This document shows, piece by piece, positions 44,949 through 50,457 of a stretch of 50,457 bases of DNA; the first letter of the stretch is position 1; every line of letters begins with the position of its first letter. The notes beneath the pieces are model-generated. The model was not told the DNA's origin. It saw nothing but the letters and a program-made list of their open reading frames with translations, and did no database searches. Made by a program: the position numbers and the translations under genes. Origin of the DNA: Candidatus Cloacimonadota bacterium (GTDB lineage Bacteria > Cloacimonadota > Cloacimonadia > Cloacimonadales > Cloacimonadaceae); NCBI GenBank assembly GCA_029561955.1, contig JAKQWO010000052.1, positions 1 to 50,457 of the forward strand, in the 5' to 3' direction.

Positions 44949-45653
44949 ATGCCCTCCATCTATCACCCTCAACTCAATGAAGAACACTGCATCACTGGGC
45001 AGGAATATCATCACCTCAGCCGCGTGCTGAGAACAAAGCCTGGTGATGTCATCCTGCTCAACGACGGCCAGGGCAGCTTGGCAAAAGCCGTCATCAAGAA
45101 TATAGACAAAAAGTGTGCACACTTCGAGCTCTTGGAAGCGGCTATTTACCATGAGCCTACCAGCCATTTTGCCATCGCCTTTTCGCTGCTGAAAAACAAG
45201 CACGATGAGCTGATCGTGGAGAAGTGCACCGAGCTGGGCTGTAGAGAGTTCTATCCTTTTATCAGCGCTTACTCAGTGCGCAAAGGCGAGGACATTTCTC
45301 GCTTTGAACGCATTGCTCTTTCGGCAATTAAGCAGTGTGACAACCCTTGGTTGCCGCATGTCAACCCCGTTTACACCCTCAAGAAATCCATCAAGCAAGC
45401 AAAAGAGCAAGGCTATACTCCCGTCTTCTGCAGCGAATTCAGGCCTGATACATGGCTAAATGACTTGAAGCTGCCCGCAAATGCCAAGCCCTGCTTCTTT
45501 ATCGGGCCGGAGGGTGGATTTGGCACTGAGGAATTGGCTTATTTAGAACAAGAAAAGATAGATCAGATCACGATCAGCCGGCTGATACTCAGGGCTGAGA
45601 CCGCAGCCATCGCTATTGCCGCTCAGTATGTAAGCCTAAGCAAACCAAGTTAG
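44949..45653 (+). CDS. rsmE: 16S rRNA (uracil(1498)-N(3))-methyltransferase
   Basis: 234 aa. SPOUT-type enzyme that methylates U1498 of 16S rRNA with SAM. N-terminal PUA-like part (HHLSRVLRTKPGD), then KNKHDELIVEKCTELG, and the knot region with FIGPEGGFGTEE and LILRAETAAIAI, the SAM-binding signatures. It follows dnaJ closely and is probably read from the heat-shock operon, an arrangement common in other bacteria. Its 3' end overlaps the converging permease gene by 18 bases. Confidence 0.95.
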   Translation: MPSIYHPQLNEEHCITGQEYHHLSRVLRTKPGDVILLNDGQGSLAKAVIKNIDKKCAHFELLEAAIYHEPTSHFAIAFSLLKNKHDELIVEKCTELGCREFYPFISAYSVRKGEDISRFERIALSAIKQCDNPWLPHVNPVYTLKKSIKQAKEQGYTPVFCSEFRPDTWLNDLKLPANAKPCFFIGPEGGFGTEELAYLEQEKIDQITISRLILRAETAAIAIAAQYVSLSKPS

Positions 45654-46925
45654 CACAATTGGGACGACGTAGTTCACCCAAGCGGTGATTGCAACTAAGG
45701 AAAAGATATTCATCAGCATGCCTGCCGTCAACATATGAGGCAGGCTTAGTTTTTTGATGCTCCCAAAGCCCAAGCCATTGGAAGGCGTGGCGATAGGGCT
45801 CATGAAGGCACACCCACTGGTGAGCGTGATTACCAGCATCGTCTGCCAGCCTATATCAGGATACACCTTCGTGAGCGGAAAGAGACTGATAAACATTGCG
45901 ATCTGAATCACTGTATTGCTCATCAGCTCCGTTGCAAAGGTGGCGATAGCTCCCACGATGAGCAGCAACAGAAATGCAGAACGCTCATTGGTGATCCAGG
46001 TAACTGCCAAGCCCGCAACGGCCTTAGGCACCTTGAGTGTCACCAGGATCAGGGTGACAACCCCTCCTGCAGCGATCCACAACAGTCCCTTACGCGGCAG
46101 GTCATGCAATATGTATTCTTTGGGCAGCAAAATACCTCGCGGCTTGCCATCTTCCAGCCTAAACTTATGAATAAAGAAGATATAGAGAAAAGCCAGAGTC
46201 CAGACAATGCTCAAGATCAACATCGAGTTCTGCAGCCAATTGAAAGCCTGACACTCCTCCGCAGCCACTCTGTTTTGATAAGCGTTGATCAAGCTCACTC
46301 CAGTGGATAGCAAAGTGGCGGAAGAGATAAAGATAATCGCCAAGATGATGGATATCCTCTCACCCCGAGAGATGGGGCCCTCACAGCAGAGCTCCGAGCG
46401 CAGTTCTCCGCCTTTCATGCTACTTTTGGGATTGAAAACCCGCATCAGGATCAACCACCCTCCCAAGCAGAGGATGAAAGAAAGTGGCATGGCCCAAGTC
46501 ATCCAGGAAAGGAAGGTAAACTGTCTGCTAATGGGAAACTTATAAGCTTCATACAAGGCTACCAAAATGCCATTGGTAGTGGTACCTGTGAGCATACCCA
46601 TTCCTCCGATATTGGCTCCCCACACGGCTGAAAGGATCATCAAAGTACCAAAGCGAGACTCGTTTTTTGGGGAGCCTCTATACTGCTTTTGCACCAGCTC
46701 CAGCACGGGAATCATGGTCATCAGTGTAACCACGTTGGCGATCAGCATCGAAAGCAGAGTCGTGCCAAAGATGATGAACCAACTGAGCTTGGAGATAGTG
46801 ATATGCTTTTCTTCTATCAGCCACCACACCAAACGCTTAGGCAGCTCAAAGCGCACAAATACCCTCGACAGCAGGTAGGATATGAGAAAGAAGAAGACCA
46901 ATTGCAGCTTATCGACGTGGATCAT
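45636..46925 (-). CDS. SLC13/DASS-like anion permease (ion transporter superfamily)
   Basis: 429 aa from ATG 46925 (AAGGA 8 bases upstream; an open frame to 46955 has no site). About 10-11 membrane segments. Two family-like signatures occur, GANIGGMGMLTGTTTNGI near 120 and GCAFMSPIATPSNGLGFGS in the C-terminal half. The repeated SNT/TPSN-type ends are as in sodium-coupled dicarboxylate, sulfate or arsenite permeases. The substrate cannot be named. It is the last gene of the minus-strand run and overlaps lpxK by ATGA. Confidence 0.75.
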   Translation of the reverse strand: MIHVDKLQLVFFFLISYLLSRVFVRFELPKRLVWWLIEEKHITISKLSWFIIFGTTLLSMLIANVVTLMTMIPVLELVQKQYRGSPKNESRFGTLMILSAVWGANIGGMGMLTGTTTNGILVALYEAYKFPISRQFTFLSWMTWAMPLSFILCLGGWLILMRVFNPKSSMKGGELRSELCCEGPISRGERISIILAIIFISSATLLSTGVSLINAYQNRVAAEECQAFNWLQNSMLILSIVWTLAFLYIFFIHKFRLEDGKPRGILLPKEYILHDLPRKGLLWIAAGGVVTLILVTLKVPKAVAGLAVTWITNERSAFLLLLIVGAIATFATELMSNTVIQIAMFISLFPLTKVYPDIGWQTMLVITLTSGCAFMSPIATPSNGLGFGSIKKLSLPHMLTAGMLMNIFSLVAITAWVNYVVPIVLTWFA

Positions 46926-47983
46926 AGCTCTATCCTTCGTCTGATTGCTTGCCATAAGGCGTTAATTTGAAAGGGGTTTGCCTCAATCATTATCACCCGC
47001 AAGAGGGACAAAATGTCCTTGTGAGGCAGGAGCTTGGGAAGGTCTTTGAAACTGCAGAATACCTGCTGAATTCCTTCAGCTTTGATCTGCTTAAATAGTG
47101 GCATCAAGGCCTCACGACTCCGAAATGAATAGTGATCAGGGAAGCTGAAATGATTTAGGTAGTTTATAGTCAAGGACTGTGCAGTCGCTTCAAAGCTCTG
47201 AGGTGAAGCCAGTGCAGAAAGCAGCAGCGAGGGCTGAGTCACTTCCACCTCCACGGCATTGCCTTGATAATCCTCAAAGCCACTGAAGCCATGCTCCACC
47301 ATGAAAACAAACTCACACAACTTGCTCAGTTCTTCTTTCAAGAAAGCCACATCTACGCTGGGGTCTTTGCGGTTGATGACGCAGATGTCTGCCCTGGCTA
47401 CGGCTGAGACGGATTCTCTGAGGTATCCGGCGGGGATCACTCTCCCATTTCCCAAGCCCATCTGCGCATCAAAGCAGACTATGCTTGCATCCTTGATAAT
47501 GCTTTGGTTTTGAAAGACATCATCCATAAACACCAGCTCAAGAGGCTGTTCTAGCGCAGCCAATTGCTCAAGTTGTGCCACCCTATCCCTTCCCACGCTC
47601 ACGTAGGCTTTGCGCAGCTTGGTTGCGCTCATCCAAGCCTCGTCACCACATACATTTGCCCCATAGAGACATCCATCTCCCAGAGAGACAATTCCCGCCT
47701 TCTTTTCCATAGCGGATTTATAGCCTCGATGTGAGACGGCAGTTTTGAAGCCCGATTCTATTGCTACTTTAGCTAAGGCCATGGTGAGGGGAGTCTTACC
47801 GCTTCCTCCACTGCTGATATTGCCAATGCCAACCACCTTGAAAGGTGGGATACAGGCCTTCATGGCCTGTCTCATTTGCTTGAAAAGCCCCAATCTTTCA
47901 TAGAGCAGAGACGCCGGATAGAGCAGGTCGCTTAGTAGTGAACGCTGCTGCCAGTATCTCTGAATCAAGCGTCGTCTTTTCAC
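46922..47983 (-). CDS. lpxK: Tetraacyldisaccharide 4'-kinase
   Basis: 353 aa, near the usual length. It adds the 4'-phosphate to the lipid A precursor at the inner face of the inner membrane. It has a short hydrophobic or amphipathic N-terminus (about 10-35), a P-loop in GIGNISSGGSGKTPL (about 52-66), a SHRGYKS motif, and LVFMDDVFQN with the DD-x-Q-H/N catalytic pattern. Its presence implies a lipid A-bearing outer membrane. It follows the CheY-like gene after 5 bases. Confidence 0.93.
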   Translation of the reverse strand: MKRRRLIQRYWQQRSLLSDLLYPASLLYERLGLFKQMRQAMKACIPPFKVVGIGNISSGGSGKTPLTMALAKVAIESGFKTAVSHRGYKSAMEKKAGIVSLGDGCLYGANVCGDEAWMSATKLRKAYVSVGRDRVAQLEQLAALEQPLELVFMDDVFQNQSIIKDASIVCFDAQMGLGNGRVIPAGYLRESVSAVARADICVINRKDPSVDVAFLKEELSKLCEFVFMVEHGFSGFEDYQGNAVEVEVTQPSLLLSALASPQSFEATAQSLTINYLNHFSFPDHYSFRSREALMPLFKQIKAEGIQQVFCSFKDLPKLLPHKDILSLLRVIMIEANPFQINALWQAIRRRIEL

Positions 47984-47988
47984 TTTTC

Positions 47989-48369
47989 CTAATCGTCTTG
48001 GCTCAATAGCTTATCTATCCGCTCCAGTAGCTCTTCTATGTCAAAAGGCTTGTAGATCACTTCTTTGAGTCCGTCCACTTTGGCTCGCACCAACACATGA
48101 TTGGCGTCATAGCCAAAGCCGGTCATCATCATCACACGAATCTTGGGATCGTAATCCATGATGCGCCAACACAGCTCGTAGCCATCCATATCAGGCATGG
48201 CGATATCCATGAGTACAAAATCCACTTTTTCGCTGTGGATCACCTTCAAGGCGTCAATACCATTGGAAAAGGCCATTACCGTCCACTCTGGACGCATCGC
48301 TTCCAATTGCACCTTGAGATTGATGGCCAATTCTTCTTCATCGTCCACGATACAGATGAGTTTTTGCAT
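47989..48369 (-). CDS. Single-domain (CheY-like) response regulator
   Basis: 126 aa, receiver domain only. Acidic pocket D9/D10, phospho-acceptor Asp55 (FVLMDIAMPD), Thr83 and Lys107 (YKPFD) are in place, so it should accept phosphate. There is no output domain and no kinase next to it; it may act by protein contact or as a phosphorelay step. Its N-terminus (MQKLICIVDDE) is strikingly like that of the PhoB-like regulator at 24722 (MQKLIYIVEDE). TAATG overlap with purC suggests one transcript. Confidence 0.9.
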   Translation of the reverse strand: MQKLICIVDDEEELAINLKVQLEAMRPEWTVMAFSNGIDALKVIHSEKVDFVLMDIAMPDMDGYELCWRIMDYDPKIRVMMMTGFGYDANHVLVRAKVDGLKEVIYKPFDIEELLERIDKLLSQDD

Positions 48370-49250
48370 TACAATGTTTCTCCGGTGATAATCTTATGTA
48401 TTTGCAGGTATTTATCTCTGGTTTGGGCTATCACTTTTTCCGGCAACTGCGGAGCTGGCAGCTGTTTATTCCAGCCGATGCTCTGCAAGTAGTTGCGAAT
48501 GAATTGCTTATCAAAACTGGGTGGGCTGATGCCGATCTCATAGCCATCTACCGGCCAAAACCTTGATGAATCTGGCGTCAATGCTTCATCAATGAGCACA
48601 ATCTTGCCCTGATAAGTGCCAAATTCAAACTTGGTATCCGCCAGAATTATGCCTTTCTTCAAGAGCATATCATGCCCAAACTGATATAATTGCAGGGATT
48701 TATCCTTTAGCTCCTCAGCAATCCATTCATCCATATGTGCCATCATGGTTCGATAGCTGATGTTGATATCGTGCCCTTCCTCTGCCTTGGTAGAAGGCGT
48801 AAACATTGGATGTTCAAACCGTTGGCTCTCTTTCATCTCGTCAGAAATCATCATGCCACCCACCGTGCCCGTCTTGCTGTATTCGCTATAGGCGCTGCCG
48901 CTGATATAGCCCCGCACAATGCACTCAAAAGGAATGACCCGTGTCTTTTGCACCAACATACTGCGCCCCTGTAGGTAATCATGATACTCATGGAACTCAC
49001 TCGGATAATCCTTTACCTCAGAGCTGATTAGGTGATTTTCGACAATGTGTGAGGTGGCTTTGAAGATGCTCACGGCAATCTGGTTGAGGATGATGCCCTT
49101 ATCCTTGATGGGCTGATCAAATACCACGTCAAAAGCGGAAATCCGATCCGAGGTAACCAAGAGCAGTTTATCGCCTAAGTCGTAGATATCTCTCACTTTA
49201 CCCTGACGGGCTTGTTTTACACAATTGAGCTTACTGATTTTATCAAACAT
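48369..49250 (-). CDS. purC: Phosphoribosylaminoimidazole-succinocarboxamide synthase
   Basis: 293 aa. It ligates aspartate to CAIR in de novo purine synthesis. Hallmarks: GKVRDIYDLGD (17-27) and SDRISAFDVVF near the N-terminus, then VIPFECIVRGYISGSA, GIILADTKFEFG and LIDEALTPDSSRFWP. All fit the longer, eukaryote-like and bacterial single-function form. It overlaps the UvrC-like gene by 8 bases, and no other purine gene lies in the window. Confidence 0.95.
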   Translation of the reverse strand: MFDKISKLNCVKQARQGKVRDIYDLGDKLLLVTSDRISAFDVVFDQPIKDKGIILNQIAVSIFKATSHIVENHLISSEVKDYPSEFHEYHDYLQGRSMLVQKTRVIPFECIVRGYISGSAYSEYSKTGTVGGMMISDEMKESQRFEHPMFTPSTKAEEGHDINISYRTMMAHMDEWIAEELKDKSLQLYQFGHDMLLKKGIILADTKFEFGTYQGKIVLIDEALTPDSSRFWPVDGYEIGISPPSFDKQFIRNYLQSIGWNKQLPAPQLPEKVIAQTRDKYLQIHKIITGETL

Positions 49251-50199
49251 TTTCTTTTCCTTGATGTTGGCTCATCCAGTAGTCATAGAGGATGCGGGCT
49301 TCATCCACATCCGCCAGATTGAGAGCCAATCTCTCATTGTCACGATATATAGTATTATCAGGCAAGAAGTTATGCTCCCTGTCTTTAACTTTTACTTTAA
49401 TTATGCGTCCATTTTGAACCTGAACACGGTCATCCTCCCAAGAGAGCTGTCGTGCCACATAGAGAAACTGTAGCCAATCCCGATATTTAGCCTGAATCTC
49501 TATCTCATCACTAAGCAGATCCGCCTTGGCAAATTCAAGATCATTGAAGTATTTATCCTTTTCATAGATAAGCATTTCCAGCACTCCATCCGAGGGCTTA
49601 AGAAAGCTCTCTTTTAGCAAAGCATCCAGCTTATCCAGGGAATACTCCTCATCTGCATCTTCCTCATTAAGGCTCCTACACCAACCTGCACAAATGCCGT
49701 CATCCAGCTTATGACATGGCCAATCCCCCGTTTCACATCTTGGTAAACGCAGGATTTTACACACCGTGTCCAAAGCATCAACCAGCGCAAATCTATCACG
49801 AAAAGGCCCCAGATAGAACCACTCGTCATTGGTATCAGCAGTGGTGCGGATAAAGGGAAACACATAGGCGTTAAGTGAAAGATAGACATAGCTTTCCCAA
49901 CGATTGAAGACATGTTGCAGAGTGGGAGGATTGTCGTGGAGCATCATCTTATAGCGGATCAAGCCCTGCATAGCGTTTTCCATAGGTTCTATCTGGATAT
50001 GGTCTGCTTTGTTAATTAGCTCCAAGATAAGGATATTATCCTCAATCTTCTGCTTCATCAGCTCGTAGCGACGGCGAGGATTTGGCGTCAAAGAAAGATG
50101 CAACAGCTCGCCCCGAGCCCAAAAACCCATCAGGCTCCATCCTTTCGGAAACTTTTTAACATCAACAGCATCAAGACGCTGCAAAACAATTTCTCGCAT
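49243..50199 (-). CDS. UvrC-like protein with Fe-S cluster cysteines but no recognisable GIY-YIG or RNase H nuclease
   Basis: 318 aa. The central part matches UvrC: GPFRDRFALVDAL (compare GPF/Y in UvrC), then C155-x6-C162-x7-C170-x3-C174, the pattern and position of the UvrC iron-sulfur site, and a helical UVR-like segment (about 190-240, FNDLEFAKADLLSDEI). The first 100 residues occupy the place of the GIY-YIG nuclease but the GVY..YVG core is not seen (GWSLMGFWARGELL instead). The UvrC RNase H and helix-hairpin-helix parts are absent; the last 70 residues are unrelated to them as far as I can tell. It may be a catalytically dead or repurposed Cho/UvrC relative. ATG 50199 has only a weak AAAGA site. 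Confidence 0.65.
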   Translation of the reverse strand: MREIVLQRLDAVDVKKFPKGWSLMGFWARGELLHLSLTPNPRRRYELMKQKIEDNILILELINKADHIQIEPMENAMQGLIRYKMMLHDNPPTLQHVFNRWESYVYLSLNAYVFPFIRTTADTNDEWFYLGPFRDRFALVDALDTVCKILRLPRCETGDWPCHKLDDGICAGWCRSLNEEDADEEYSLDKLDALLKESFLKPSDGVLEMLIYEKDKYFNDLEFAKADLLSDEIEIQAKYRDWLQFLYVARQLSWEDDRVQVQNGRIIKVKVKDREHNFLPDNTIYRDNERLALNLADVDEARILYDYWMSQHQGKENV

Positions 50200-50457
50200 G
50201 AATTACATCTTTTTCAGATTGTGTTTTGTGTCAACGGATAAGTGATGTTCAAAAGTCAAAATGCTGCCATAGAACTCGGACTAATCCACAGATACGCCAT
50301 TTTCAAAGAAATGCTCAGAAATCAGAAGCCTCTGCAGGAGTAAAACTTCCGTTTTATCTTGTGACGTGCCAGTATACCGGACTGTTTTTTGTTTGTTTTT
50401 AGTGTTATTTCTCTACGCATTTTTTGCTCCGCGTAGTGGGTTTTAATATTGCCTGGT
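50200..50457. other. Upstream region of the UvrC-like gene, no gene seen
   Basis: 258 bases to the window edge. A 6-bp inverted repeat CTACGC / GCGTAG (50413-50418 with 50431-50436) is the only structure noted. No clear promoter was identified. Confidence 0.4.

Follow-up and report, generated by a model that had tools for sequence, protein, structure and literature searches.

A UvrC/Cho-like protein with a GIY-YIG fold lacking the catalytic set, encoded beside a lone receiver in Cloacimonadota

A 'Cho-like' subfamily of GIY-YIG proteins has been described, in which the C4 and UvrBb parts are present and the EndoV-HhH part is absent, with an example in Gloeobacter and a Cho-like+Exo form in Actinobacteria; Cho itself is an active enzyme with a C-terminal domain of its own (PMC1564403). 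The corresponding loop of Escherichia coli UvrC carries an O2-sensitive [4Fe4S] cluster and is involved in complexes with dsDNA, according to the account of Silva 2020 given in PMC9426483, and a role of UvrC that is independent of its catalytic sites has been reported for Helicobacter microimports (PMC9426483). In the gacA/uvrY-uvrC neighbourhood of Gammaproteobacteria, a response regulator gene lies beside uvrC, and this regulator acts on numerous other targets (PMC10875052). A dead paralogue of the UvrC/Cho incision nuclease was not found described in the open-access papers searched.

We analysed a window of 50,457 nucleotides, positions 1 to 50,457 of contig JAKQWO010000052.1 from a Candidatus Cloacimonadota bacterium, with a focus on the following gene, the open reading frame of which starts with ATG.

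49243..50199 (-): UvrC/Cho-like pseudo-nuclease gene, 318 aa (TIGR00194 match; orthologues in 91 genomes of the order; purifying selection)

Relationship to UvrC and Cho-like proteins

The window protein alone matched the NCBIfam uvrC model TIGR00194 over residues 102-234 (37.4 bits, E=1.2e-9), remaining below the curated cut-off of 285 bits, and the NCBIfam DEDD-exonuclease/Cho-like model NF005906 (E=2.2e-9), far under the cut-off of that model. Both E values are well beyond chance, and the relationship to UvrC claimed in a preliminary description of this DNA was borne out by these HMM searches, in which the UvrC and the Cho-like models both matched. A 47-member profile separated the short family members from full UvrC in 125 genomes of the phylum; among these members, TIGR00194 matched 42 (best E 2.4e-24), NF005906 matched all 47 (best E 1.3e-27), and the Cho model matched 9 weakly (best 1.1e-6). 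A Pfam search with the window protein returned no match, and PADLOC made no assignment for it. A glycoside hydrolase, retrieved when the single sequence was compared with the PDB by phmmer, was a chance match and was superseded by the family profile. In profile-profile comparison, the family aligned with UvrC at 99.5% over 261 columns, ending just past the UVR region, and with the intact short Cho-like paralogues of the phylum at 99.7% over 295 columns, end to end.

The homology to UvrC covers UvrC residues ~1-290, with an equal position of the C4 loop. The two proteins differ in that the UvrC-like protein is without the RNase H and HhH parts and the catalytic GIY-YIG, its 37 bits standing against the 285-bit cut-off. 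It stops after the UVR-like region and a small domain, EndoV-HhH being absent, and its length of 318 aa leaves no room for either the RNase H or the HhH part, the loss of which the preliminary description had correctly noted. A search of the window genome with the UvrC RNase H domain (PF08459) found the true uvrC as the sole matching place. Thus, both by its score under TIGR00194 and by its lack of the RNase H-like (EndoV) and HhH C-terminal half, the protein falls outside UvrC proper.

By layout, the 'Cho-like' class is the closest. The order of GIY-YIG, C4 loop, and UVR-like region followed by the end of the protein is shared, in line with the match of NF005906 throughout the family; however, the window family has no active site in any member, no exonuclease domain, and a fixed receiver neighbour, and its UVR part lies below the Pfam threshold, being an aligned helical hairpin with an invariant Phe. 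E. coli Cho is similarly a short protein with GIY-YIG and C4 but is active, and its placement in our tree was without confidence. The preliminary suggestion that the Fe-S module might be used in a new fold was not supported, as known 'Cho-like' proteins share this layout and the GIY-YIG fold of the window protein is complete, though dead.

Short intact Cho-like proteins were also observed in one family of the order, f9, at three loci (L055, 4385-5317, -; L096, 2957-3928, -; L097, 3670-4638, +). They resemble the window family in length, layout, C-terminal region, and C4 and UVR-like parts, but they form a separate clade with a patchy occurrence in f9, L055 has all seven catalytic residues, and the GIY-YIG motifs of L096 and L097 look intact by eye. 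No receiver was found beside L055.

GIY-YIG fold, C4 loop and UVR-like hairpin

The protein can be divided into four parts as follows.

49900..50166 (-): GIY-YIG fold with the active site lost, residues ~12-100 (profile against PDB, residue table, AF2 and Foldseek)
49678..49737 (-): C4 loop, C155-x6-C162-x7-C170-x3-C174 (alignment to own UvrC)
49453..49587 (-): UVR-like helical hairpin, residues 205-249 (AF2 model, alignment, dN/dS)
49246..49452 (-): small C-terminal beta plus helix domain, residues 250-318 (AF2 model, alignment)

The Pfam GIY-YIG model gave marginal matches in just 4 of the 47 family members. The family profile built from these members matched UvrC GIY-YIG structures in the PDB over residues 7-104, with E=1.4e-10 for 1yd6. 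An AlphaFold2 model based on 36 sequences had a pLDDT of 88 and a pTM of 0.85, and its nine best PDB matches by Foldseek were all UvrC GIY-YIG domains, with a target TM of 0.70-0.84, an rmsd of 1.9-2.6, E values of 0.01-0.06, and a probability of 1.00; on the Thermotoga maritima UvrC GIY-YIG structures 1yd2-1yd5, it superposed with a target TM of 0.82-0.84. The profile and the predicted structure thus both place the protein in the GIY-YIG superfamily. It had been stated from the sequence that the GIY-YIG core was not recognisable: this was right as to the catalytic residues, which are missing, and wrong as to the fold, the model of the N-terminal part being predicted as a complete GIY-YIG fold without an active site and not as a new fold.

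The window protein has other residues at six of the seven catalytic positions, and in the aligned model Arg44, corresponding to R39 of T. maritima UvrC, is the only one left. In T. maritima numbering, the substitutions are Y29->H34, K32->L37, Y43->M48, E76->Y83, and N88->Q95, and Y19 corresponds to M24 by MAFFT or to S22 by hand alignment. The complete set Y19/Y29/K32/R39/Y43/E76/N88 was present in none of the 66 distinct members, and the family thus lacks the Tyr, Tyr, Lys, Arg, Tyr, Glu, and Asn of active GIY-YIG nucleases. As controls in the same alignment, the UvrC of the same genome, the UvrC of locus L054, and the intact short paralogue L055 retained all seven. Another lysine, K84, located one column past the lost catalytic Glu, occurs in 63 of the 66 members, with Ala in the own UvrC, and one might speculate about a new role for it, for example in standing in for the metal.

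Such a residue may be taken to favour a nuclease that stays active through a rearranged catalytic centre, as may the single retention of K32, E76, or N88 in some deeper members and the existence of unusual GIY-YIG active sites, as PMC2630997 indicates for R.Hpy188I. However, most members have Y, Q, L, F, H, K, or M in place of the catalytic Glu, the K32 position is hydrophobic or aromatic in most members, and the catalytic columns hold no substitute set of conserved polar residues; we consider retained activity very unlikely. Taken together, the UvrC-like protein is very probably a nuclease-dead Cho-like paralogue.

In the own UvrC, the cysteines are arranged as C159-x14-C174-x7-C182-x3-C186. 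The match to UvrC that had been proposed for C155, C162, C170, and C174 therefore stands for the presence of four Cys and for the last two spacings, which are identical, and not for the first spacing, which is shorter in the window protein (x6 vs x14). All four Cys follow the GIY-YIG domain, as in Cho-like proteins, in 62 of the 66 members, including that of the window. The whole loop is deleted at L046, L051/L052, and L053, with L046, L052, and L053 sitting in three separated clades of the tree; its conservation across the clade is thus broad with lineage-specific losses, indicating that the C4 loop is usual and not indispensable. By analogy with E. coli UvrC, it is probably a [4Fe4S] site.

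The hairpin after the C4 loop consists of helices 205-219 and 223-249 in the AF2 model. Its F223 is invariant (66/66) and falls in the alignment column of the UVR-motif Phe, and L221 is present in 64 of the 66 members; the Arg in the LRD part of the motif is not conserved in the family, and the Pfam UVR domain was recognised in 0 of the 47 members. The Phe of the UVR motif is presumably of importance for UvrB binding in E. coli, and our literature search found no F223 mutants of UvrC. In the C-terminal domain, conserved residues are G264, N288, E289, A292, and E300. This domain aligned with intact Cho-like proteins inside the full-length profile alignment, and gave no significant match to intact Cho-like proteins or UvrC when used alone.

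Distribution, selection and the true uvrC

The UvrC-like protein has homologues in 56 of the 61 close relatives and in all eleven sampled families of the order of the window (f1-f11), and only full-length UvrC was found in f12 and f13, the remaining families of the class. A GTDB contig scan with the motif Y[LIV]GPF[RK][SD]RF identified 35 relatives, all in Cloacimonadota, the scan being based on a 16-row subset of the alignment and one motif, such that distant homologues outside the phylum could escape it. In the tree, the family was monophyletic with a support of 100/99, apart from UvrC and from the three short intact Cho-like proteins of f9, and its branches were longer than those of UvrC, indicating faster evolution.

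The dN/dS of the window gene against its two nearest relatives was 0.13 overall, with 0-0.03 in residues 201-250 (UVR-like) and 0.22-0.28 in residues 1-100 (GIY-YIG). Thus, constraint is strongest on the UVR-like part and weaker, though still present, on the dead domain. The loss of the active site and an evolution faster than that of UvrC could be expected of a decaying uvrC pseudogene, to which we give practically no credence, as the frame stays open across 11 families and the dN/dS of 0.13 and the conservation of invariant residues refute it.

In the window genome (G000, 99.5% complete), contig C42 carries a uvrC that is complete (618 aa, 561 bits, E=1.2e-168), a gene that had been named earlier as one to look for, and the genome also has uvrA and uvrB outside the window. 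A replacement of uvrC by the UvrC-like gene can accordingly be ruled out for this genome. The gene ahead of its uvrC is murJ, and uvrC in the phylum is usually preceded by an overlapping gene of ~520 aa, as at L137 (5886-9268). Most relatives sampled carry a full uvrC too. Two models found none in G008, G016, G021 (genus g4), G023, and G046, where the UvrC-like gene is kept; a loss of uvrC is possible in these genomes, which are incomplete. In G008 and G046 (81% and 93% complete), uvrA and uvrB are present together with the UvrC-like gene, and its retention in these two incomplete genomes, where uvrC was not found, disfavours a strict UvrC helper.

The lone receiver and the proposed function

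The neighbourhood of the gene in the window is as follows.

50229..50234 (-): TTGACA, possible -35 box (conserved in an alignment of upstream regions from three congeners)
48369..49250 (-): purC (SAICAR synthetase), 8-base overlap with the UvrC-like gene (Pfam PF01259)
47989..48369 (-): lone receiver, 126 aa (Pfam PF00072)
46922..47983 (-): lpxK, neighbour in family f1 (Pfam PF02606)
45636-46955 (-): CitMHS-type transporter overlapping the lpxK end (stays beside lpxK in several relatives)

The order of UvrC-like gene, purC, lone receiver, and lpxK, with ends that overlap or nearly touch, agrees with the operon-like arrangement described at first, all three neighbours being identified by Pfam. 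Of the 91 genomes of the order having both genes, 90 have the receiver on the strand of the UvrC-like gene and downstream of it; in the exception, G037, each gene is on its own contig. There is no gene between them in 32 of these 90 genomes, one in 56, and a larger gap in 2. The receiver is a single-copy orthologue throughout the phylum, whole ones scoring 130-207 bits vs at most ~88 bits for the next receiver in any genome. Its phosphorylation residues are conserved, D9, D10, and D55 in 64/64 and T83 and K107 in 63/64, and a GFGYDPNH-like motif is nearly fixed. In families other than f1, the next genes of the run often encode a 300-aa predicted membrane protein containing HExxH, then MazG, and then a histidine kinase. 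The 300-aa protein (L036, 6367-7269, and orthologues at ~22 loci), which is located after the receiver and before MazG and the histidine kinase in many families, has a signal-like start, HEYIHH...WFHEG, and a C-terminal membrane segment; this predicted membrane peptidase-like protein had no Pfam match.

The sister order (f13) has no UvrC-like gene but does have the receiver, in most cases behind purC. At 11 f13 loci with uvrC visible on the flank (L117-L121, L123, L125, L128, L129, L131, and L132), uvrC is convergent to the receiver, several other f13 contigs ending too early to judge this proximity. Mostly one ORF of ~110 aa without a Pfam match lies between the two genes, and two ORFs do at L125 and L131. 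The receiver is thus found near a uvrC-type gene in two ways, beside the UvrC-like gene in the order of the window and near the true uvrC in f13.

The purC-receiver pair of f13 also means that the adjacency may be an inherited operon order. According to such a passive linkage, the UvrC-like gene would head an old purC-receiver transcript, with the receiver being unrelated to it; inheritance alone can conserve gene order, and the gacA/uvrY-uvrC neighbourhood, with its regulator of many further targets (PMC10875052), provides a parallel. This neighbourhood resembles the present one in that a response regulator gene adjoins a uvrC-type gene, and it differs in consisting of a full response regulator and an active UvrC, whereas in the window the receiver stands alone and the UvrC relative is dead; since it too pairs a response regulator with uvrC, caution is needed with neighbourhood evidence. 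However, f9 has lost the intervening purC, and yet the UvrC-like gene and the receiver stay adjacent there, overlapping or within 1-23 bases, and the receiver is separately close to the true uvrC in the sister order. We regard passive linkage as rather improbable and a functional link of the UvrC-like protein to the receiver as fairly probable.

The fold, the C4 loop, and, above all, the UVR-like hairpin are retained, and the UvrC-like protein is therefore best read as a binding protein. Its identity is well supported, and its function is what we infer. From knowledge of the family, we take its expected partners to be DNA, for the GIY-YIG face and the C4 loop, and UvrB, for the UVR part. Our best explanation, which we hold with evenly divided confidence, is that the dead UvrC/Cho paralogue acts as a non-cutting adaptor, competitor, or sensor tied to the receiver. 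It would bind DNA and/or UvrB through the GIY-YIG surface, the C4 loop, and the UVR-like hairpin without cutting and, as an adaptor or competitor, would alter the timing of UvrC loading on the UvrB-DNA complex; alternatively, it might be a sensor of DNA state. Its output would be coupled to whether the receiver encoded by the downstream gene is phosphorylated. The DNA-damage adaptor or UvrB-binding regulator suggested in the preliminary description thus remains the leading candidate. Several observations count against it: the Pfam UVR domain was recognised in none of the 47 members, the LRD Arg is not conserved, the C4 loop has gone from three separated lineages, uvrC was not found in the incomplete genomes G008 and G046, and f13 has the purC-receiver pair without the UvrC-like gene. 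The UvrB/DNA adaptor mechanism and a regulation of UvrC loading are put forward tentatively, and we see little likelihood in the most specific version, in which phosphorylation of the receiver controls the pseudo-nuclease and gates UvrC recruitment to UvrB-DNA as a two-component control of incision.

It may otherwise be that the scaffold has been redeployed without a repair role, as an output or partner of the receiver in signalling with MazG and the histidine kinase. The close linkage to a receiver whose phosphorylation residues are all conserved, the extension of the gene run to MazG and the histidine kinase in several families, and the retention of the UvrC-like gene in genomes where uvrC was not found are consistent with this. 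On the other hand, selection is strongest on the UVR-like segment with its invariant Phe, the complete GIY-YIG fold is maintained, and a real uvrC accompanies this receiver in the sister order. Such a redeployment is unlikely in our view, while deserving serious attention, and we think the same of a structural or redox-sensing use of the C4 loop in that setting.

Dead enzyme paralogues often turn into regulators. In the present case, a whole bacterial order keeps a dead UvrC/Cho paralogue beside a receiver that adjoins the real uvrC in the sister order. The non-cutting adaptor, competitor, or sensor proposed here is therefore a concrete, testable candidate for how excision repair might be regulated in bacteria, or for how the UvrC scaffold might be used outside repair.
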